Shown here piece after piece: positions 3,554-26,123 of a stretch of DNA of 32,515 bases (position 1 is the first letter of the stretch; each line of letters starts with the position of its first letter). Both the position numbers and the translations under genes were made by a program. Source of the stretch: Bacteroidales bacterium. Its GTDB lineage: Bacteria > Bacteroidota > Bacteroidia > Bacteroidales > Muribaculaceae. Where the stretch lies: NCBI GenBank assembly GCA_029219425.1, contig JAQXTJ010000039.1, positions 1 to 32,515 of the forward strand. The letters run 5' to 3'. A model generated the notes under the pieces. That model was not told the DNA's origin. It was given only the letters and a program-made list of their open reading frames with translations, and ran no database searches.

Positions 3554-3638
3554 TAATATTTATAACATTCTTGTCGTTCCGAGAGTCTTCTTCCGGACGA
3601 TTAACTTGCATCCAATTATTTCTGAAGAATCAATCATT

Positions 3639-4832
3639 ATGGAACAGAAACAACCGAAATACGATTACTCGGATGTGCATTTCGAGGACAATGGGAAGAT
3701 AAAGCTGATTATTGTGGTGGGGACGAGGCCGGAGATTATCAGGCTGGCTGCGGTGATTGACAAGTGCCGCCGCTACTTCGACGTGATTCTCGCCCACACC
3801 GGGCAGAACTACGACTACAACCTGAATGGAATTTTCTTCCGCGACCTGAAGCTGGCTGAGCCAGAGGTGTATATGAACGCTGTCGGCGATGACCTCGGGG
3901 CTACTTGTGGCAATATTATTAATTGCTCCTACAAGCTCTTTGCGCAGACGAAGCCCGATGCCGTTCTGGTGCTGGGCGACACAAATTCGTGCCTATCTGT
4001 GATTGGCGCGAAGAGGCTGCATATACCAATCTTCCACATGGAGGCAGGCAACCGCTGCAAGGACGAGTGCCTGCCCGAAGAGACCAACCGCCGCATAGTG
4101 GATATTATCAGCGACGTGAATATGGCTTATTCGGAGCACGCCCGCCGCTATCTCGCAGATTGTGGCTTGCCCAGGGAGCGAACCTATGTGACCGGCTCAC
4201 CTATGGCCGAGGTGCTTCACAACAACTTGGCCGAGATTGAGGCGAGCGATGTGCACAGTCGGTTAGGGCTTGAGAAGGGAAGGTACATACTTCTCAGTGC
4301 GCACCGCGAGGAGAATATCGACACTGAGAAGAATTTCCTCTCGTTATTCACAGCCATCAACAAGATGGCAGAGAAATATGATATGCCTATTCTCTACAGT
4401 TGTCATCCCCGGAGCCGCAACCGCCTTGCCGCGAGCGGGTTCAAGCTCGATGAGCGTGTGATTCGGCATGAGCCACTCGGATTTCACGACTACAATTGCC
4501 TGCAAATGAACGCGTTTGCCGTGGTGAGCGACAGTGGCACTCTTCCCGAGGAATCATCGTTCTTCACCAGCGTGGGGCATCCATTCCCGGCGATTTGCAT
4601 ACGCACATCCACCGAGCGTCCTGAGGCAATCGACAAGGCCGACTTCATCATTGCCGGAATCGACGAGAAGTCGCTGCTTCAGGCAGTGGACACGGCAGTG
4701 GAGCTGTGCCGCGACGGGCATCATGGCACGCCTGTGCCCGACTATGTGGAGGAGAACGTGAGCACTAAGGTGGTGAAAATCATACAGAGCTATGTGGGCA
4801 TAGTGAACCGCATGGTGTGGCGTAAATACTGA
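3639..4832 (+). CDS. fnlC/capG: UDP-GlcNAc 2-epimerase family, FnlC/CapG type
   Basis: A 397-residue non-hydrolysing UDP-GlcNAc 2-epimerase homologue. Family motifs appear in order: VVGTRPEIIRLAAVI, HTGQNYDYN, VLGDTNSCLSVI, HMEAGNRCKDECLPEETNRR, VTGSPMAEVL, LSAHREENID, SCHPRSRNRL and SDSGTLPEESSFF. In the FnlA-B-C set it epimerises C2 to yield UDP-L-FucNAc; used alone, the same fold would be WecB (UDP-ManNAc). Context favours FnlC/CapG. I use the ATG at 3639 rather than a TTG at 3606, because homologues begin with a short charged leader like MEQKQPKYDYSDVHFEDNGK. Unusually, it is separated from capF by 1.2 kb of gene debris. Confidence 0.92.
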   Translation: MEQKQPKYDYSDVHFEDNGKIKLIIVVGTRPEIIRLAAVIDKCRRYFDVILAHTGQNYDYNLNGIFFRDLKLAEPEVYMNAVGDDLGATCGNIINCSYKLFAQTKPDAVLVLGDTNSCLSVIGAKRLHIPIFHMEAGNRCKDECLPEETNRRIVDIISDVNMAYSEHARRYLADCGLPRERTYVTGSPMAEVLHNNLAEIEASDVHSRLGLEKGRYILLSAHREENIDTEKNFLSLFTAINKMAEKYDMPILYSCHPRSRNRLAASGFKLDERVIRHEPLGFHDYNCLQMNAFAVVSDSGTLPEESSFFTSVGHPFPAICIRTSTERPEAIDKADFIIAGIDEKSLLQAVDTAVELCRDGHHGTPVPDYVEENVSTKVVKIIQSYVGIVNRMVWRKY

Positions 4833-18087: not shown

Positions 18088-20169
18088 TTAGAGCCACTGG
18101 TGCCAGCGGTCGCATGATTGCTTCACGGCACGGCCGGTGGGGGTTTCGGGATAGCGAGCCACTACGGTCTTCAGGTTGAAGAGCATATATTCGGCCTCGG
18201 CACGGGCGGCGCGTGTTGTGAGCATTGCCATTGCTGCTTTCACTTCGCGGTTGAAGGCTGCTTCTGTCGCTTCATAGTCCACTGACATTTCATAGTCATA
18301 CAGTTCGGGAAATGTTCTAAGTGTGTCGGAACCTCCTGCATCGAGTGCCGGCATGAATAGTGATGTGTGGCAGCCTCGCCAGTATTGTGTGAGTGCCCAG
18401 CAATCTTCGAATGAGTTGCGGCGAGCTATGGCATATTTAAGCCGTGCCATTCCGCGCTCATCGGGCGTTTTGCCGTGCTGCATCATCTCCAGGTAGTGTA
18501 GCATGCGGCAGGCGAAGTGGTATTTTGCCCGGAGCGGTGAAGCGATGGAGTCGAAGTCGTGCCAATGACCGGGGAAGGCGCAGAATGGATTGACGTTCAG
18601 GCAGCCCTTCTTGTACACGTTGAGCGTTGACAGGTATTTGAGCGGTACTCGTGATAGATAGACGGCCGCGCGGCCGTAGCATCCATCGCGCAGAGCAAGG
18701 GTTCCAATGATTTCATCGAGATAGGAGGCATCGGTACGGGCATGAAGTCTCAGATGCCTGTAGAGTGGTGTGTCGGCTGCGATTGCGTGCTTCACGTCGA
18801 TGAGCTTCGATGATGTGAGCGAGTTCATCAGTCTGAAAGAAGCGTTGCAGTAGTCAATAGTGTTCTCATATACTCCGCTGTTTCGCATTTCTTCGAGTGT
18901 GATGCTCATCAACTGTGTCTCGGGGACAGGGCGCCAGGTGTCGTCAAACGGCCAATAGGTGTGACGCTGCTTTTCGGCAAAAAAATTGTCGGCATAGCTG
19001 CACAGGAGGATGGCTGTGGCATAATCCTGTTTATGCCACAGTGTGGGAATCCAGTTCATATAGACGATATTCTGAAGCATGCGGTTCCACTCTGTGGCAT
19101 CTTCCGATGTCACATCTATTTTTGCCTCAATCCATTGCAGGTCGGGAAGCAACGAGCCACGTTGGCCGAGAGCGGCATCCACTTTCATTCGGTAGGCACG
19201 GGCGTTGTCGCGGAAGTCGGCCGAAGAGAAGCTCGATTGCAAAGCCCTTGCTATGTGCCGCGATGCTGTGACATAGTCGGAGTGGAACTCACCGGCCTCG
19301 TATGCAAGATAGAACTCCCAGTCGCCGCGGTAATGAGTCTTGCCGCTGCGCAGCACGCTCTGTGCCACCGGCTTTATCGCGCAAAAGCGAGCGGAGTCGG
19401 TGGAACAGTGCTGGATGTGTGCCATCAGCTCGGGGCAGTCGGGATTACGCTCTGCCATATATGCCACGGCATTAGCATGGACTATGGACTTGAAATCGCC
19501 AGCTTTAGCGAAAAACTTGTTGGCCTTATCGGTATAGCCCAGTCGCGACCAGCAACCAGCCACATACTTCATTGCCATACGCTTCAACAGGTTGCTGTCG
19601 GGGAAATCGCGGAAACACTTGTCGTAGCTTTCCACGCACCCGGCATAGTCGCGTGCGGCAAACAGTGCCCTAACGAGTTGCAGTGCGTAGCGGTCCTTAA
19701 GGCGTGAACCTTTATAGGCTTTGCAGGATTCGATGATGTCGGTAAATTCTCCTGTAGTGCCATATCTCGATTCGGGATAATACCACGGCGAAGCTACCTC
19801 TTTGCGCTTGCGCTCCAACTCCTTGGCGGTGAAGAGGAACTGCTCGATCTCACAGTCGTTGGTGTTGCAAATATAGGCAATGAAAAGATTGTCGGGGTCA
19901 CTTTCGGGGTCGTAGTCCTCATAATCATAGAGAACTTTGGAGATGTCGGCAGCGGGAATTTTGGGCGATGTGAGCTGCTGCCACAGCTGCAGATTCTCGC
20001 TGCGCTCAAATGATTTCACGTCGTTGCCATCGGTCTTTGATGTGAAGAACTTTGGCGTTGGGATTACCGGGAAAAACGGGCCGCAAGCCTCAGCTGTGGG
20101 CACGGCTATGATCATAGCTGCCATGCAGCTAATTATTGCTATCGGTAGAGTATATTTTGTCGATTTCAT
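18088..20169 (-). CDS. Large exported protein with conserved ACGPFFP start, unknown function
   Basis: A 693-residue protein. MKSTKYTLPIAIISCMAAMI begins a signal peptide that ends near TAEACGPFFPV; the Cys could be a lipidated residue, but the lipobox is poor. The mature part is alpha-helical with tetratricopeptide-like stretches (YAGCVESYDKCFRDFPDSN, LGYTDKANKFFAKAGDF). The frame is open to 20250, but the ATG at 20169 gives the signal peptide and is preferred. It overlaps the upstream lipoprotein gene by 41 bases in another frame, so the two are likely cotranslated. No enzymatic motif is recognised. Confidence 0.75.
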   Translation of the reverse strand: MKSTKYTLPIAIISCMAAMIIAVPTAEACGPFFPVIPTPKFFTSKTDGNDVKSFERSENLQLWQQLTSPKIPAADISKVLYDYEDYDPESDPDNLFIAYICNTNDCEIEQFLFTAKELERKRKEVASPWYYPESRYGTTGEFTDIIESCKAYKGSRLKDRYALQLVRALFAARDYAGCVESYDKCFRDFPDSNLLKRMAMKYVAGCWSRLGYTDKANKFFAKAGDFKSIVHANAVAYMAERNPDCPELMAHIQHCSTDSARFCAIKPVAQSVLRSGKTHYRGDWEFYLAYEAGEFHSDYVTASRHIARALQSSFSSADFRDNARAYRMKVDAALGQRGSLLPDLQWIEAKIDVTSEDATEWNRMLQNIVYMNWIPTLWHKQDYATAILLCSYADNFFAEKQRHTYWPFDDTWRPVPETQLMSITLEEMRNSGVYENTIDYCNASFRLMNSLTSSKLIDVKHAIAADTPLYRHLRLHARTDASYLDEIIGTLALRDGCYGRAAVYLSRVPLKYLSTLNVYKKGCLNVNPFCAFPGHWHDFDSIASPLRAKYHFACRMLHYLEMMQHGKTPDERGMARLKYAIARRNSFEDCWALTQYWRGCHTSLFMPALDAGGSDTLRTFPELYDYEMSVDYEATEAAFNREVKAAMAMLTTRAARAEAEYMLFNLKTVVARYPETPTGRAVKQSCDRWHQWL

Positions 20170-21205
20170 TAGCAGTGTAATTTGAAAGGTTTTGTTGGTC
20201 GAAATGGAAAATAATGTTGCAGTGTTTACGTCCTGAGAGGTGACGCTCAATAGCCTCCTTCACAGCCTGCACTTCACTGGAGGTGGATTTTTCGGTGCGC
20301 ACTACGTCGCCCTTGCGGATAATCATGCCATTGTGCACCATATCGCAAAGCGCACGGTGGCTGTTTTTACCGGATTTTGCAAATCGTGTGGTGTCGGTCA
20401 CGTTCACCCCATTCATCAGTCCTAAGAATTTTATGTTTCGGAATAGCAGCTGCCACGAATAAGTGGGATAAGCCACATCGAGGTGAAGCTGATAGTCATC
20501 GAGATAGTCAAGGTATTGTTCCACGTCATCGATGTCGATGATGGAGTTTCTGACATTGGGGTCAGAGAAATTGCCGGTGTTGTACACCATGAGCACACCG
20601 TAGTCCACCGGCGGAGCCTTCCGGGAGAGCTGGTGCAGGCGTATGGTTGAGCTAAGCGACCATTTGAGGTCCTTCTGTGCTATCTGCACACGGGCTGAAT
20701 CGCACAGTGCGAAAAACGACTGCTCGGTTGCAGCTGTCCAGTCGCAGTCGAGCTGTAGCCCTTCCACATCAATAAAATCGTTGTAGTTGCACATGCGGCG
20801 CACGCGCTCCACTATATGGCTTGCCAGCTCGCCTTCCTGCCCTTTTGCAGCCTTCAAAGCATCGACAGTGATATACACCACCGGCACTACAAACATTGAA
20901 TTGAGCGAATCAATGGTGACCCGGTAGTTGTTAAGCGACATTCGCATGGATGCATTGGGCACCACGCGCTCAAATGTGCTGCTTGTGTAGCTCGACGCTT
21001 CGGCCGTCACGTCAAACATGCGCAGATAAATTCGGTAAATCTTGTGGCGGTCCATGAAGTTGTAGTCGTTGGGGCTAAGCTCCAGCACAGTCTTCCAGTA
21101 ATACACGCCATTGCACTCAATGTGATTGAAATCGGAGCCATCGTGGGGAGAGCAAGAGCACATTGCAGCAAGAAATAAAAGCAGATAGATAATCGATTGT
21201 CTCAT
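20129..21205 (-). CDS. Probable lipoprotein with TIM-barrel-like domain
   Basis: A 358-residue protein with a lipoprotein signal (MRQSIIYLLLFLAAMCSCS; Cys17 or Cys19). The rest shows alternating strands and helices in the order IYRIYLRMFDVT, VVPVVYITVDAL, VEGLQLDCDWTA, LKWSLSSTIRL, YGVLMVYNTGN, LHLDVAYPTYSW and CNIIFHFDQQN, as in glycosidase-like TIM barrels (it reminds me of DUF3142). Acidic residues in QLDCDWT and HLDVAYP are candidates for an active site, but activity is not shown. It is coupled to the downstream exported protein by a 41-base overlap. Confidence 0.7.
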   Translation of the reverse strand: MRQSIIYLLLFLAAMCSCSPHDGSDFNHIECNGVYYWKTVLELSPNDYNFMDRHKIYRIYLRMFDVTAEASSYTSSTFERVVPNASMRMSLNNYRVTIDSLNSMFVVPVVYITVDALKAAKGQEGELASHIVERVRRMCNYNDFIDVEGLQLDCDWTAATEQSFFALCDSARVQIAQKDLKWSLSSTIRLHQLSRKAPPVDYGVLMVYNTGNFSDPNVRNSIIDIDDVEQYLDYLDDYQLHLDVAYPTYSWQLLFRNIKFLGLMNGVNVTDTTRFAKSGKNSHRALCDMVHNGMIIRKGDVVRTEKSTSSEVQAVKEAIERHLSGRKHCNIIFHFDQQNLSNYTANEIDKIYSTDSNN

Positions 21206-21265
21206 ATTAGACTACAGTACAAAAAAAGGTGGAAATAAGATGTGTTTTATCACTGCAAATATCGC

Positions 21266-21301
21266 AAAAAAATAATGCCCTGCAAAGAGAATTGCCGGGC
21301 A
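21266..21301 (-). terminator. Intrinsic terminator after the LytTR-DUF2233 operon
   Basis: On the minus strand, TGCCCGGCAA (21301-21292) pairs with TTGCAGGGCA (21285-21276), with one mismatch and a 6-base loop. TTATTTTTTTGC follows (T7 at 21272-21266). Confidence 0.75.
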
Positions 21302-21338
21302 CTGTATGAAATGGTGACTATGATGTATGAAATGACGA

Positions 21339-22196
21339 TTATCGCCAGATAATATAGTTGGTGCTTACGGATGGCGATGGTGCTTCCTTGCCATATTCAG
21401 TGCGTTTGCCATTGGCATCCACTGCAAATCCGAAAGCCTCTGACCCCACCAGATAGATGGCATTCGACACTCCCATATCAACAAGCATCTGAGCGAAATC
21501 GTGGAATGAGAGCCTCTCGTGGCTAAGAATCACCACCACATTGCCATTCCACTCGGCGAGAGCCTTACGGAGCGACCGGCCTTTAGGCTTGTTCTCCACC
21601 AACTGGTTTCCCACCACAAGCGGATACTGGCGGAAGAAGTAGCCATTGGCCTCAATGGCTCGCTCTAGGAAAGGCGTGGCATCGGCCACACCTATTGTCG
21701 TTTTGCCGTCGATAATGGCGCAGAAGCCCGATTTGGCTTGCCCCTTGCTCACCAAATTTCCCTTCAAGACGTAGGCGCCCACAATGCCGCCATTATCACC
21801 TCTAATGTCGGCAGCCTGCATTGCCAGCACCACATCAGAGCTTTGCAGCGCGTCGATGCCTATGTGAAGCTGCGGCACGGCATCTCGCGGGGTGAGAATA
21901 GTGATAGGCTCACCGCCAATAATGGTGTCGGTAATTTCCACATAGCCTTTTTTCGCCACAGAGGCAGTATCAGCAGGGGCAGTGGCAACCTGTGTCGCAG
22001 CCAGTTGCTCACTCTCAGCATCATCGGCATCATCACCGCTCCATATCAGTGCAATCACCAAGGCAACAATCGCCACAGTGGCACATGCAGTGGCAATGAA
22101 AAAGAGCCGGCGCGGACGAGCATGAATGCCCCTCCCGCCGTCGGGCGAGATAACCCTAATCTCGTTGTCATCAATGTCAATATTCCTTCTGCTCAT
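21339..22196 (-). CDS. Membrane-anchored DUF2233 (NAGPA-like phosphodiester glycosidase) protein
   Basis: A 285-residue protein. Residues 1-30 are polar and cytoplasmic, a single membrane segment follows (ACATVAIVALVIALIW, about 37-52), then a periplasmic DUF2233-like domain with MQAADIRGDNGGIVGAYVLK, IEANGYFFRQYPLVVGNQLV, RSLRKALAEWNGNVVVILS and a closing STNYIIWR. NAGPA-type members remove GlcNAc from phosphodiesters. The segment that in active members reads like NAINLDGGGSS is here SNAIYLVGSEAFG, so the DGG is absent. Either a divergent or a non-catalytic member is possible. Its start overlaps the LytTR stop by 4 bases. Confidence 0.75.
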   Translation of the reverse strand: MSRRNIDIDDNEIRVISPDGGRGIHARPRRLFFIATACATVAIVALVIALIWSGDDADDAESEQLAATQVATAPADTASVAKKGYVEITDTIIGGEPITILTPRDAVPQLHIGIDALQSSDVVLAMQAADIRGDNGGIVGAYVLKGNLVSKGQAKSGFCAIIDGKTTIGVADATPFLERAIEANGYFFRQYPLVVGNQLVENKPKGRSLRKALAEWNGNVVVILSHERLSFHDFAQMLVDMGVSNAIYLVGSEAFGFAVDANGKRTEYGKEAPSPSVSTNYIIWR

Positions 22197-22558
22197 AGTC
22201 GTTCCTCCTGTTCTAAATATTCCTTCAGCGCTTTCAAGGCTTCGCGCGAAGCAGTAGCCTCATGCTTGAAGGTGCGGCAATCCGAAACAATAAGCTTCTG
22301 CCGGGCCGGGTTGATGTAGGAAATGTATTCGCGGTTGACAATCAATTTCTTGCCGATGCGAATAAACCGGTTGTCGTTGTCGGTGACAAAATCCATCAGC
22401 TTACGCTCAATCTGCCCAAGTTGCAAATTGACGACATACTCCGAGCCGTCGGCCAGTGATACGACCGAGTAGTTTCCGTCGGCAGTGATAATCACCACTG
22501 CCTCGCTCGGAACCCTTATAAGCTCACCCGAAGTGCTGAAAGTTAAACATCTGCCCAT
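22193..22558 (-). CDS. LytTR family DNA-binding regulator (stand-alone domain)
   Basis: A 121-residue protein that is almost only a LytTR domain: a strand VPSEAVVIITADGNYSVVSL, then YVVNLQLGQIERKLMD, DNRFIRIGKKLIVNREYISY and RQKLIVSDCRTFKHEATAS. No receiver or membrane domain is present, so it cannot be a normal response regulator. LytTR proteins bind direct repeats near promoters. It is the first gene of a two-gene unit and overlaps the DUF2233 gene by 4 bases, which suggests that the membrane protein senses or controls the same process. Confidence 0.85.
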   Translation of the reverse strand: MGRCLTFSTSGELIRVPSEAVVIITADGNYSVVSLADGSEYVVNLQLGQIERKLMDFVTDNDNRFIRIGKKLIVNREYISYINPARQKLIVSDCRTFKHEATASREALKALKEYLEQEERL

Positions 22559-22581: not shown

Positions 22582-22589
22582 CAAAATTA
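22582..22589 (-). promoter_or_regulatory. TAnnTTTG element upstream of the LytTR gene
   Basis: TAATTTTG on the minus strand, 24 bases before the start codon at 22558. The -33 element is not clear. Confidence 0.4.
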
Positions 22590-22692: not shown

Positions 22693-23574
22693 TCAGAAAG
22701 CGAGGATGAGACCCGCAGAGAGGGAGCGGAACTCCAGCCCGGTCGATGACCTGAGCACATGGCAGGGACTGTATTTCACATAGAAGCCCAGCCAGGAGTA
22801 GTTGATTGAGGCAAGGAAGTCGCAAGTTATCACGTTCTGACGAATGTTGTCCGATGATTGCTCGTGCTTTCCCTGGGCGTTGTGATATCGGGTGAGAAGG
22901 CTGGCGTGGGAGTTGATGCTGAGGATTGCGCCGGCATTGAGCCAGAAGTCGCGGTAGAGCCGCTGCTGGTAGATTGCAGGGACGAGCCAGGAGAACGTCT
23001 TGATGCGCGACAGCGGCTTCGACACCTCCTCGCCATAGGTGGATATGGAGATTGCGCCGTTGTCGGCCTGGGAGAAGCGCAGGTTCTCGTCGAGGCGGTA
23101 GTTGCGCCAGTCGATGCCAATGCCTATCGAGAGCCGGCTGTTGGGGGTGAAGCGGTGCTCAAAGGCAATGGCATTGAGGAGCATGATCTCCCACGAAGTG
23201 CGCATCTTGCTGCTGATGCCCGGAACCGAAACGCCGCCAAAAGCCAGACCGCCCACGATGCAGGCACTGTGGGGATATTTGGACGTGGGTTTTGCGCGGC
23301 GGCTGAATGGGAGGGTGAGTCGCCAGTTGTTGCTCTGCTGCGAGGTGTGCACGGTGGCGTCGGGGCTGAATTGCGACTGGTAGGAGTAGGAGAACCCGGG
23401 CTCGTCGTCCTTTCCGGTCACGGTTACGGTAACGCCCTGTGAGTTCTCGGTGAGGACTAAGCGGTGAGCGCCCTCAATCACCCTTATGGTGTCGGTGGGA
23501 ATAGAGTCGTAGGCCGACTCGGTTGCTGCTGCGGTGAGAGCTGTGGAAGCGAGGAGGATAAAAAGACATTTCAT
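22693..23574 (-). CDS. Outer-membrane beta-barrel-type protein, copy 2
   Basis: A 293-residue exported protein with a signal peptide (MKCLFILLASTALTAAATES). The N-terminal periplasmic segment (DTIRVIEGAHRLVLTENSQG) is followed by amphipathic strands ending in an aromatic-rich closing region (LGFYVKYSPCHVLRSSTGLE) and a terminal Phe, as in small outer-membrane beta-barrels. It is a paralogue of the gene at 23626-24504: both share the DT-V-x-HR start, the R-SYG/YA-strand region and the YVKYxPCxVL end. It is the last gene of the sigma-factor operon. Function unknown. Confidence 0.75.
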   Translation of the reverse strand: MKCLFILLASTALTAAATESAYDSIPTDTIRVIEGAHRLVLTENSQGVTVTVTGKDDEPGFSYSYQSQFSPDATVHTSQQSNNWRLTLPFSRRAKPTSKYPHSACIVGGLAFGGVSVPGISSKMRTSWEIMLLNAIAFEHRFTPNSRLSIGIGIDWRNYRLDENLRFSQADNGAISISTYGEEVSKPLSRIKTFSWLVPAIYQQRLYRDFWLNAGAILSINSHASLLTRYHNAQGKHEQSSDNIRQNVITCDFLASINYSWLGFYVKYSPCHVLRSSTGLEFRSLSAGLILAF

Positions 23575-23575
23575 T

Positions 23576-23617
23576 GAGTTAGGAGTTATTAGTTAGGAGT
23601 GAGGAGTTATTTGTTAA
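23576..23617. repeat. Heptanucleotide tandem repeat (GAGTTAG-like)
   Basis: Six 7-base units in register: GAGTTAG, GAGTTAT, TAGTTAG, GAGTGAG, GAGTTAT, TTGTTAA. They fill most of the 51-base gap between the two beta-barrel genes. Confidence 0.7.
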
Positions 23618-23625
23618 TACATTAT

Positions 23626-24504
23626 TTACAGGCCTACGGAGAACCCTATGGAGAAAGAGCGGAACTCTGGGAGGTTGCCGGCCTTGAGCACTCGGCAGGG
23701 ATTGTACTTCACATAGAGTCCTATTTCGCTGAATTGGACTGCCGCCATAAGGTCGAGGCTCACTTTGTGCTGGCCTATTCCGCCCACGCACCAGCGAATC
23801 TCTTTATCGCCCTCGCGGTAGCGGGTGAGGGCTGTGCCGTGCACATTGAAGCACAGCACCGCGCCGGCCGACAGAGAGAAGTCGCCCCAGTCCTTGCGGA
23901 GCAGCAGAGGCACGTCGAGGTAGAAGCTTTTTATGCGCGAGAGGTGGCTGTAGGTGTCGGCAGCGTAGGTGCCCAGGGTGAGCCGGCCGTCGGCATCCTT
24001 GGTGAAGCAGCGGTCGGAGTTGAGGCGGTAGTTCTTCCAGCCAAAGCCCACTCCCGAGGTGATGCGCCACGAGTGAGGGAAGAACACCGATAGCGAAACG
24101 GGGCACAGCAGTCCAAGCTCGGCCGAGCTGCCCATATTGCACACATCGCCGGCGCCGCACATGTTCATAAAGCCATAGTGCATTCCCAGTGCCGAGAACC
24201 ACTCCACGCTTGGCTTTGAGGCAGTCTTCTGCTCCTTGCCGGTGAGTGAGGAGATGAATGGAATGTTGAGGTTGTCGTCGTCGTCGCCATCGGCTTTTGG
24301 CGTCTGTTTTGCCGAGTAGCGGTAGAGGAAGCTGTCGTTGGAGCCGCTGCCCTGCACCTCCACGCCCATTGAGCCACCGGGCTGCTCGGTGATGATGATG
24401 CGGTGAGGGTGCTCCACCATCACCACGGTGTCGGCTGTTGTGCTTTGTGCAGAAGCGGCCACAGCCATAAAGCAAAGGATAAATAATGATAATTGACGTT
24501 TCAT
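23626..24504 (-). CDS. Outer-membrane beta-barrel-type protein, copy 1
   Basis: A 292-residue exported protein with a signal peptide (MKRQLSLFILCFMAVAASAQ). An N-terminal segment (DTVVMVEHPHRIIITEQPGG) precedes a set of amphipathic strands such as WFSALGMHYGFMNMCG, SWRITSGVGFGWKNYRL and LGLYVKYNPCRVLKAG-like closing strands. This is the pattern of a small outer-membrane barrel. It is related along its length to the next gene downstream, indicating tandem duplication with substantial divergence. It follows the small exported protein gene by 30 bases. Confidence 0.75.
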   Translation of the reverse strand: MKRQLSLFILCFMAVAASAQSTTADTVVMVEHPHRIIITEQPGGSMGVEVQGSGSNDSFLYRYSAKQTPKADGDDDDNLNIPFISSLTGKEQKTASKPSVEWFSALGMHYGFMNMCGAGDVCNMGSSAELGLLCPVSLSVFFPHSWRITSGVGFGWKNYRLNSDRCFTKDADGRLTLGTYAADTYSHLSRIKSFYLDVPLLLRKDWGDFSLSAGAVLCFNVHGTALTRYREGDKEIRWCVGGIGQHKVSLDLMAAVQFSEIGLYVKYNPCRVLKAGNLPEFRSFSIGFSVGL

Positions 24505-24534
24505 TTTCTTCGATAATTATGTGGGTTGGATTAT

Positions 24535-24990
24535 TCATTTCTTTTTTATGAGCTTGTTCACTTGGTCGGGCGACGCCTCGCCGGCCATATACACCACCAC
24601 AATGCGGGCCGGGCCATTGCAGCCGTTAGCGGCATCCTTGTTCACATAGAAGATGTAGCGGTTGTTGTTGTTGCGGCGAGGCAAGTTGAACGAGCCAAAG
24701 CGTAAGCGTCCACCGCGATACACTGTTTCCTTGGAGATTGCGGTGAGGCCATCCTTGAGCACCAGATGCTCAATCTCGGAGCAAGTGGCAGAGTCGGCCG
24801 ATAGGGCGAGACTGCGGTAGAGAGAGAGGTTGAATTTCTCCACTGCGTTGCCGGCGACATAGGTGGCGACGGTGCCCGGGAGCTTTGCGTAACGGCCGTC
24901 GAACACATTTGCCACGTTTAGCCCTTTCTGTGCGGCTACGGGTAGTGCTGCTGCTATAATAAGTGCTGATATTAACAAAAACTTCTTCAT
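24535..24990 (-). CDS. Small exported protein (possibly DUF6108-like)
   Basis: A 151-residue exported protein from MKKFLLISALIIAAALPVAAQ, a clear signal peptide. An in-frame start at 25014 would add eight residues before the signal peptide and is not used. The mature part has strands and helices (VATYVAGNAVEKFNLSLYRS ... RYIFYVNKD ... ARIVVVYMAG) and ends in lysines. Similar small secreted proteins accompany ECF sigma/anti-sigma pairs in Bacteroides; I think of DUF6108 or DUF4252 but cannot confirm either. The gap to the anti-sigma gene contains heptanucleotide repeats. Confidence 0.7.
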   Translation of the reverse strand: MKKFLLISALIIAAALPVAAQKGLNVANVFDGRYAKLPGTVATYVAGNAVEKFNLSLYRSLALSADSATCSEIEHLVLKDGLTAISKETVYRGGRLRFGSFNLPRRNNNNRYIFYVNKDAANGCNGPARIVVVYMAGEASPDQVNKLIKKK

Positions 24991-25021
24991 AATATTTTCT
25001 GGGCTTTGGGTCATTGGCCTT

Positions 25022-25162: not shown

Positions 25163-25618
25163 TTATTCGGAGATGAAAGGAGCGAAGTCGGAAAATTGCG
25201 ATTCGATGCCTATGCTGGCCTCGGTGGCAGCATCGCCAATGTCGCTCAGCGAACCTTGCATGAGGGCAACCACCTGTGCCTCATCGTCGATGCGCGTGCC
25301 ACCCACCATGGCATAGCAGGTGTCGTTCATCGAGTGGCTGTAGATGATGCCGATGCCCACTGAGGCTACCACCGCCACAATGGCGGCGGCAGCCACGCGT
25401 GGCCAAGGCTTTCGGTGGTGCTTCGCTGCTGCACGGCGTTTAGCCGTGGCATAACCCAGCACAGCGCGAATGGCATTGAATTGCGGCTCGGTGCGGTGAG
25501 CTACCATGCGGCGCAGCAGAGCCTCCTCCTCGAGCGAGGTCTCGGCCTCGAAGTAGCGGTCGATAATCTGCCTAAGCTGTGCGTCGGTAAGCTGAGAGTT
25601 GTTGCGGTTATTCATCAT
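25163..25618 (-). CDS. Putative anti-sigma factor (single-pass membrane protein)
   Basis: A 151-residue protein with a helical cytoplasmic N-terminus (LTDAQLRQIIDRYFEAETSL; LEEEALLRRMVAHRTEPQFN), one membrane segment at about residues 75-95 (VAAAAIVAVVASVGIGIIYS) and a short periplasmic tail. This architecture and the 11-base overlap with the ECF sigma gene upstream argue for an anti-sigma factor. No zinc-type HxxxCxxC motif is seen, so it would be of the motif-poor kind. The signal it detects is unknown. Confidence 0.75.
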   Translation of the reverse strand: MMNNRNNSQLTDAQLRQIIDRYFEAETSLEEEALLRRMVAHRTEPQFNAIRAVLGYATAKRRAAAKHHRKPWPRVAAAAIVAVVASVGIGIIYSHSMNDTCYAMVGGTRIDDEAQVVALMQGSLSDIGDAATEASIGIESQFSDFAPFISE

Positions 25619-26123
25619 CGTGAGTGTTTAAGTATATTTCTCTTATCAATTTTCGCGAGCGGCTTAGGGCCACCCTCACTGCCGTGGGCTGCATGGAGAG
25701 AGCCGAGGCAATTTCCTCGAAGCTGCGCCCCTCCACGTCGCGCATCTGCACAATGGCCTGTTGCTGAGGCGTGAGGCGGCCGGCGATGATTCGTTCCACA
25801 CTTTGCAGCAGCATTTCGCGCTGCGTGGCGTCGTCGTCGCCATCGTCGTCGGGCGGTTCGGTGATGAGGTTGTCGGTAAAGCCCACCGTGGGGGAGTGGC
25901 TGCGGCGGCGCAGCGCGTCGATGCACACATTGTGCACGGTGGCGGTGCTCAGAGCCTCGGCATTGGCATCGGGAGCGATGCGGTCGCGACGCGTCCACAG
26001 GCGGCAGAAAGCATCTTGTAGGGCGTCGTCGGCAGCGTTGCTGTCGCCGAGAATCGCTGTGGCCATGCGCCTAAGCCGCTGGCGCAGGCCCACAAACACC
26101 GATGTGAGAGCATCATCATTCAT
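25608..26123 (-). CDS. ECF-type RNA polymerase sigma factor
   Basis: A 171-residue sigma-70 family protein. Region 2 is in RLRRMATAILGDSNAADDAL and QDAFCRLWTRRD; an acidic linker (about residues 85-100, PPDDDGDDD) separates it from region 4, where LTPQQQAIVQMRDVEGRSFE and EIASALSMQPTAVRVALSRS form the -35-binding helix-turn-helix. It directs RNA polymerase to a small regulon, probably including its own operon. It is the first gene of a five-gene unit with anti-sigma, a small exported protein and two beta-barrel proteins. Confidence 0.92.
   Translation of the reverse strand: MNDDALTSVFVGLRQRLRRMATAILGDSNAADDALQDAFCRLWTRRDRIAPDANAEALSTATVHNVCIDALRRRSHSPTVGFTDNLITEPPDDDGDDDATQREMLLQSVERIIAGRLTPQQQAIVQMRDVEGRSFEEIASALSMQPTAVRVALSRSRKLIREIYLNTHDDE

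Follow-up and report, generated by a model that had tools for sequence, protein, structure and literature searches.

A receiver-less LytTR regulator and a membrane protein with a NAGPA-type fold overlap translationally and form an obligate pair, and the Bacteroidetes promoter of the adjacent envelope operon is marked, at a fixed spacing, by a direct repeat of 9 bp with a 21-bp period. Both lie in the 32,515-nucleotide stretch of DNA analyzed here, hereafter the window, and their features are listed in Table 1. The two proteins probably form a local membrane-gated switch of the LytTR regulatory system (LRS) type, in which the enzyme-derived partner would tether and gate the LytTR protein and thereby control a single local envelope operon.

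Table 1. Features of the LytTR-partner pair and of the adjacent target operon, with positions in the window
Feature	Position	Strand	Basis
Target gene 2, secreted 720-aa protein, no family, weak TPR; start codon uncertain	18088-20250	-	neighbourhoods, 53 loci
Target gene 1, lipoprotein, GH18-type TIM barrel, DWT for DWE, 358 aa	20129-21205	-	AlphaFold, Foldseek, alignment
-7 element GATATTTG, target promoter	21256-21263	-	A..TTTG offset in 51/59 segments
Hairpin with T-run, probably terminating the LytTR-partner transcript	21266-21302	-	RNA fold z -4.5; hairpin conserved in relatives
-33 TTTG, target promoter	21283-21286	-	fixed offset from operator in 26/59 segments
Candidate LytTR operator repeat 2, TTTCATACA, 21 bp downstream of repeat 1	21303-21311	-	
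Candidate LytTR operator repeat 1, TTTCATACA	21324-21332	-	0 mismatches, 0 expected in shuffles
NAGPA/DUF2233-fold single-pass membrane partner, 285 aa, without DGG	21339-22196	-	Pfam, AlphaFold, Foldseek, linkage
Periplasmic NAGPA-fold domain, residues 85-285	21342-21944	-	AlphaFold, Foldseek
Y-L-V-G-S, residues 248-252, in place of L-D-G-G of active-type relatives	21441-21455	-	alignments
Transmembrane helix, residues 29-53	22038-22112	-	AlphaFold secondary structure and sequence
Conserved cytoplasmic segment D-I-D-D-N-E-I-R-V-I-S, residues 7-17, candidate LytTR contact	22146-22178	-	information content
LytTR-only DNA-binding regulator, 121 aa, no receiver	22193-22558	-	PF04397 profile match; conserved in alignment
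-7 element TAATTTTG, LytTR gene's own promoter	22582-22589	-	operator repeats absent upstream

The regulator matches the LytTR profile PF04397 over residues 12-115 (43.5 bits, cut-off 22.6), and a Pfam search of the 121-aa protein returned no receiver or second domain above cut-off, in agreement with the first-pass annotation of a LytTR protein without a receiver. Searching PDB sequences with the LytTR profile gave only chance matches to designed proteins. The regulator ORF overlaps that of the partner by 4 nt (ATGA). A GTDB-wide scan recovered 258 relatives of the partner, and the best 80 of these 258 loci were fetched, covering Muribaculaceae, Parabacteroides, Dysgonomonas and MAGs labelled Alistipes, Prevotella and Bacteroides; the few Bacillota-labelled MAGs among them are probably misbinned or misnamed. 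Upstream DNA was present, and the locus therefore evaluable, in 76 of the best 80. A LytTR gene lies directly upstream of the partner gene in 75 of these 76, and the same 4-nt overlap is found in 52 of the 75 linked loci. The linkage extends across the Bacteroidales, in support of the two-protein module proposed at first pass, and the count rejects the reading of an orphan LytTR gene beside an unrelated gene. The one exception is a Dysgonomonas locus (L090), in which the LytTR gene is reduced to a C-terminal remnant. At this locus (L090:5530-6030), the interrupted LytTR gene retains only ASKEALRALK, and the partner is intact with a drifted cytoplasmic motif (DDDVYFLG).

The partner scores 24.8 bits against the NAGPA family PF09992, just below the cut-off of 25, and 26.1 bits in the genome-wide scan. 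Its AlphaFold model (pLDDT 87) starts with a short N-terminal stretch that leads into one helix; a disordered linker then connects this helix to a well-predicted, beta-rich domain. Basic residues before the helix and acidic residues after it suggest an N-in topology. The sole good PDB matches found with Foldseek are DUF2233/NAGPA-fold proteins, headed by the DUF2233 protein 3ohg and vertebrate NAGPA 6pku (E ~1e-8, TM-score ~0.5), so that Pfam, the predicted helix and the structural matches all bear out a single-pass membrane protein with a NAGPA/DUF2233-like outer domain. The reported YLVGSEAFG in place of the DGG motif of active relatives is likewise confirmed, as this stretch aligns with LNLDGGSS of slr0280. 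Another NAGPA-family gene of the source genome (contig C166) keeps NRPRTAIG...LDGGGSS, and the canonical motif therefore exists in this organism but is missing from the partner. The Asp of the motif is absent from all 53 aligned partner copies (V46/L2/T2/I1/P1/C1), whereas the Gly that follows it is invariant, as are G185, F187-R189, L193 and R210. Motif loss is thus universal in the paired clade, and a degenerate pseudogene copy is rejected because the motif-less family is conserved over the Bacteroidales.

The partner copies also share a cytoplasmic segment ahead of the transmembrane helix, with the consensus D-I-x-D-D-E-I-R-I-I. Residues 6-17 carry a mean of 3.1 bits of information, compared with 2.8 bits in the folded domain, 0.9 in residues 18-29, 1.5 in the helix and 1.1 in the periplasmic linker. 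A similar I-x-I-I shape survives in G022, G104 and G205, which form a divergent clade. Unpaired paralogs lack the segment and start instead with a signal or lipoprotein peptide, and paralogs without a LytTR neighbour keep the Asp in LDMGxGWNYSW; the paired clade therefore combines motif loss with possession of the cytoplasmic segment. On a plain reading of this conservation, the segment would be a docking peptide for a cytoplasmic protein, with the LytTR product as the obvious candidate for the putative contact. Just upstream of the LytTR pair, three loci (L076:4191-5489, L053:3129-4451 and L064:3086-4438) encode a protein in which a SanA-like DUF218 domain is joined to a NAGPA-like one carrying LDMGxGWNYSWYR or a close variant, and L023 has a DUF218-only version at this position.

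In the gated switch that we favour, the partner would hold the LytTR protein at the membrane through its N-terminal DI-DDEIRII segment and would keep it inactive, as LRS membrane inhibitors do. The outer domain, which has lost DGG and retains a conserved pocket region, would bind an envelope glycan or another ligand, and ligand binding or a periplasmic signal would release the regulator. Released LytTR protein would then activate the operon of the lipoprotein and the 720-aa protein, or A2M and PBP1C in other species. Tethering, regulatory sign and ligand are our inferences; a glycan or phosphodiester is plausible from the fold, and default inhibition by the partner follows the LRS precedent, with the opposite sign possible. 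The conserved cytoplasmic motif and the existence of LytTR clades specific to one partner lend weight to the signalling link between the two proteins suggested at first pass, which stays a proposal.

The opposite sign is the strongest competing reading, although an unlikely one: the partner may activate, with the LytTR protein working only once recruited to the membrane, like a transmembrane transcription regulator split in two. Fused transmembrane transcription regulators are reported to be widespread (PMC10269533), and the LRS-like regulators of Bacteroides are themselves membrane-bound (PMC6193735), whereas the LRS precedent of Streptococcus mutans is one of inhibition. The sequence does not discriminate between inhibition and activation by the partner. 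More doubtful still is the reading of the partner as a co-transcribed effector enzyme that uses other catalytic residues, with the signal for the LytTR protein coming from elsewhere. The partner does belong to an enzyme fold with the invariant residues given above, and a 121-aa LytTR protein could answer a cytoplasmic signal. However, the motif Asp is missing from every aligned copy, and the best-conserved segment outside the fold is cytoplasmic, which an effector enzyme would not need and which the unpaired paralogs do not have. The essentially obligate LytTR pairing, together with the likewise paired sister LytTR clade with its FHA/TM partner, also argues against it.

The gated switch also has a candidate operator, TTTCATACA-N12-TTTCATACA, which lies just past the partner's stop codon (21303-21332) and had escaped the first-pass annotation. 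No such repeat pair arose in shuffles of the 32.5-kb window, and the source genome contains exactly one perfect site. Three sites with 3 mismatches in this genome overlap ORFs. A recurring TTTCATTCACCACCTCAATCATTTCATACA match in several genomes was discarded because it is coding sequence. The LytTR direct repeats envisaged at first pass thus exist, but before the next operon rather than upstream of 22558. Operator repeats were not found at the LytTR gene's own promoter in the source genome; accordingly, the positive autoregulation typical of LRS is not seen there.

Across the 76 loci (0.85 Mb), 35 perfect TTTCATACA-N(11-13)-TTTCATACA sites are present, against a random expectation of <0.001 by our own arithmetic. 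Nineteen come directly 3' of the partner gene and 4 are close to the start of the LytTR gene; of the remaining 12, the majority precede a relocated target. In most Muribaculaceae, the site is located between the partner and the next operon, which encodes either the 358- and 720-aa pair or A2M and PBP1C. The site tracks its target when the latter lies upstream (L070, L073, L077, L092), on the opposite strand in divergent orientation (L033) or several genes away (L076). Sites precede A2M genes in L032, L056, L057, L085 and L091, some with 1-2 mismatches, and sites with 0-1 mismatch occur upstream of the LytTR gene in L057, L087, L089 and L091; degenerate sites are found at at least some pair loci (e.g., L066, L079, L103). 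Among 198 genomes of the family, which as relatives are not independent, the site occurs in 30 of the 41 pair-bearing genomes vs 11 of the 157 pair-less ones (p=1.6e-17), leaving 11 pair-bearing genomes without a site at up to 1 mismatch. In one genome (G036, contig 29; L186), no LytTR pair was detected, and a perfect TTTCATACA operator precedes a GH18-fold lipoprotein gene and a 720-aa-type gene.

These sequence patterns strongly support the proposal that the LytTR protein binds the TTTCATACA repeats and controls the adjacent operon. That the repeats instead serve another regulator or a processing element, with the LytTR pair controlling something else, is the least probable reading: it would accommodate the site kept before the same target in pair-less G036, and LytTR binding is deduced from sequence, but the size and period are those of known LytTR direct repeats (9 bp, 12 bp apart; PMC6193735), pair loci of different genera carry the site, also ahead of the LytTR gene, it co-occurs with the pair across the 198 genomes, and it recurs 5' of the downstream genes of the sister LytTR module (L189).

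The target promoter is of the Bacteroidetes type, TTTG-N19-(T)AnnTTTG, and a scan for sigma-70 promoters, as anticipated in this phylum, was of no help. In the source genome, the operator repeats end 16 bp ahead of the -33 element and 39 bp ahead of the -7 element. The -7 element follows repeat 2 at ~39-41 bp in 51 of the 59 unique segments, whereas in shuffles no offset exceeded 3. A hairpin with a T-run lies between the operator and the -7 element, and its 3' arm contains the -33 TTTG. This hairpin, which a simple terminator scan did not list, corroborates the claim that the pair has its own terminator, and it is intertwined with the next operon's promoter. Loci in which the pair immediately precedes the target commonly have the hairpin, and it is mostly missing where the target has moved away, a distribution that fits a terminator which ends the transcript of the pair and is embedded in the promoter that follows. 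Rfam gave no match in the window.

For the target genes, Pfam and NCBIfam assign no function to the 358-aa lipoprotein, and Pfam assigns none to the 720-aa family. The lipoprotein model (pLDDT 90, AlphaFold) is a TIM barrel nearest to GH18 proteins, with Foldseek matches to the spore-cortex enzyme SleL (4s3j, E 2e-10) and to chitinases. The GH18 motif is DxxDxDxE, ending in DWE with the catalytic Glu. This Glu is absent from the lipoprotein, which reads LDCDWT at the corresponding position (assigned by eye); CDWT is invariant, with T157 unchanged in 31 sequences. The 720-aa protein is co-conserved with the lipoprotein in the neighbourhood analysis of 53 loci. In other species, the operator is instead ahead of a Pfam-confirmed A2M-family protein followed by a PBP1C-like gene (identified by eye). 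The GH18-fold lipoprotein, A2M and PBP1C-like targets together indicate that the outputs are envelope functions.

Within the same family, a second, related clade of LytTR regulators has a membrane FHA protein as its partner, with a caspase-like peptidase alongside. In the LytTR tree, a single branch with support 100/99 separates the NAGPA-paired from the FHA-paired regulators, indicating that partners are inherited with the regulator. The sister module of Muribaculaceae (L189:953-4151; also L230, L232-L234, L236, L238, L240-L247 and L249) consists of a LytTR-only gene, mostly followed by a gene for a membrane protein that has an FHA domain and a C-terminus resembling a zinc ribbon. Nearby genes encode an acidic repeat protein, a secreted protein of the caspase-like Peptidase_C14 family and, in some cases, a Ser/Thr kinase, and a TTTCATACA-type repeat pair precedes the downstream genes of the module in L189. 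In the window, what may be a second trans-envelope regulatory unit directly precedes the LytTR pair: an ECF sigma factor gene (25608-26123) overlaps a gene whose small product has one TM segment and the size of an anti-sigma factor (25163-25618), and behind them come DUF6108 and two genes for beta-barrels of the PorP/OMP type (22693-25014). Polysaccharide biosynthesis genes, encoding a nucleotide-sugar epimerase/Polysacc_synt_C protein (1207-2406) and a UDP-GlcNAc 2-epimerase (3606-4829), lie at the other end of the window.

We tentatively suggest, at slightly less than even confidence, that these small LytTR proteins with clade-specific partners represent an undescribed Bacteroidales signalling class. 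Its partner types could be an inactivated phosphodiester-glycosidase fold or an FHA/TM protein beside a caspase-like peptidase, an assignment that falls a little short of an even chance; with the first type of partner, an ex-enzyme would sense envelope glycans and turn on one adjacent envelope operon, for the GH18-fold lipoprotein or for A2M and PBP1C, via a TTTCATACA operator. The literature searched contained no paper naming both LytTR and phosphodiester glycosidase. Beyond S. mutans, the signals and membrane partners of LRS are largely unknown, and more LRS varieties were predicted in 2018 (PMC6193735). The present system brings together a sensor domain of solved fold, a named operator, a fixed promoter geometry and a local target, which makes the whole chain testable in culturable gut Bacteroidales. 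It also suggests that a receptor was made from an enzyme fold, and in commensals it connects the switch with genes of envelope defence (A2M, PBP1C).

The LRS of S. mutans (HdrRM, BrsRM and others) combine a soluble receiver-less LytTR regulator with a membrane protein that inhibits it, have an operator of two 9-bp direct repeats ~12 bp apart upstream of the promoter, and are characterized by positive autoregulation (PMC6193735). The pair described here shares the regulator without a receiver, the TM protein in the same operon and the 9-bp repeats ~12 bp apart before a promoter, and it shows every LRS structural feature tested except repeats at its own promoter in the source genome. Unlike in S. 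mutans, the partner is single-pass with a NAGPA/DUF2233-fold outer domain, the promoter is of the Bacteroidetes type, and the operator in the window lies at the promoter of the neighbouring operon, not of the pair. The LRS-like operons of B. thetaiotaomicron and B. ovatus also belong to Bacteroidales and combine LytTR with a membrane partner, and their direct repeats have a ~22-bp period before a -33/-7 promoter with a 19-bp spacer (PMC6193735). However, their regulator has TM segments, the partner is NfeD+DUF2154, the two genes stand in the opposite order, and the repeats read TCCGGTATTCA rather than TTTCATACA (PMC6193735). The outer domain resembles the NAGPA/DUF2233 phosphodiester glycosidases (6pku, 3ohg) in overall fold, but in contrast to these enzymes the partner lacks DGG, carries a TM helix and a cytoplasmic tail, and is almost always encoded beside LytTR. 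The proposed switch would act in the manner of ECF sigma/FecR-type anti-sigma pairs, in which the short cytoplasmic tail of a membrane protein gates a cytoplasmic transcription factor encoded just upstream; here, by contrast, the domains are unrelated and a LytTR DNA-binding protein takes the place of a sigma factor. Relative to known LRS, what is best filed as new is the type of membrane partner, together with the defined operator and target.
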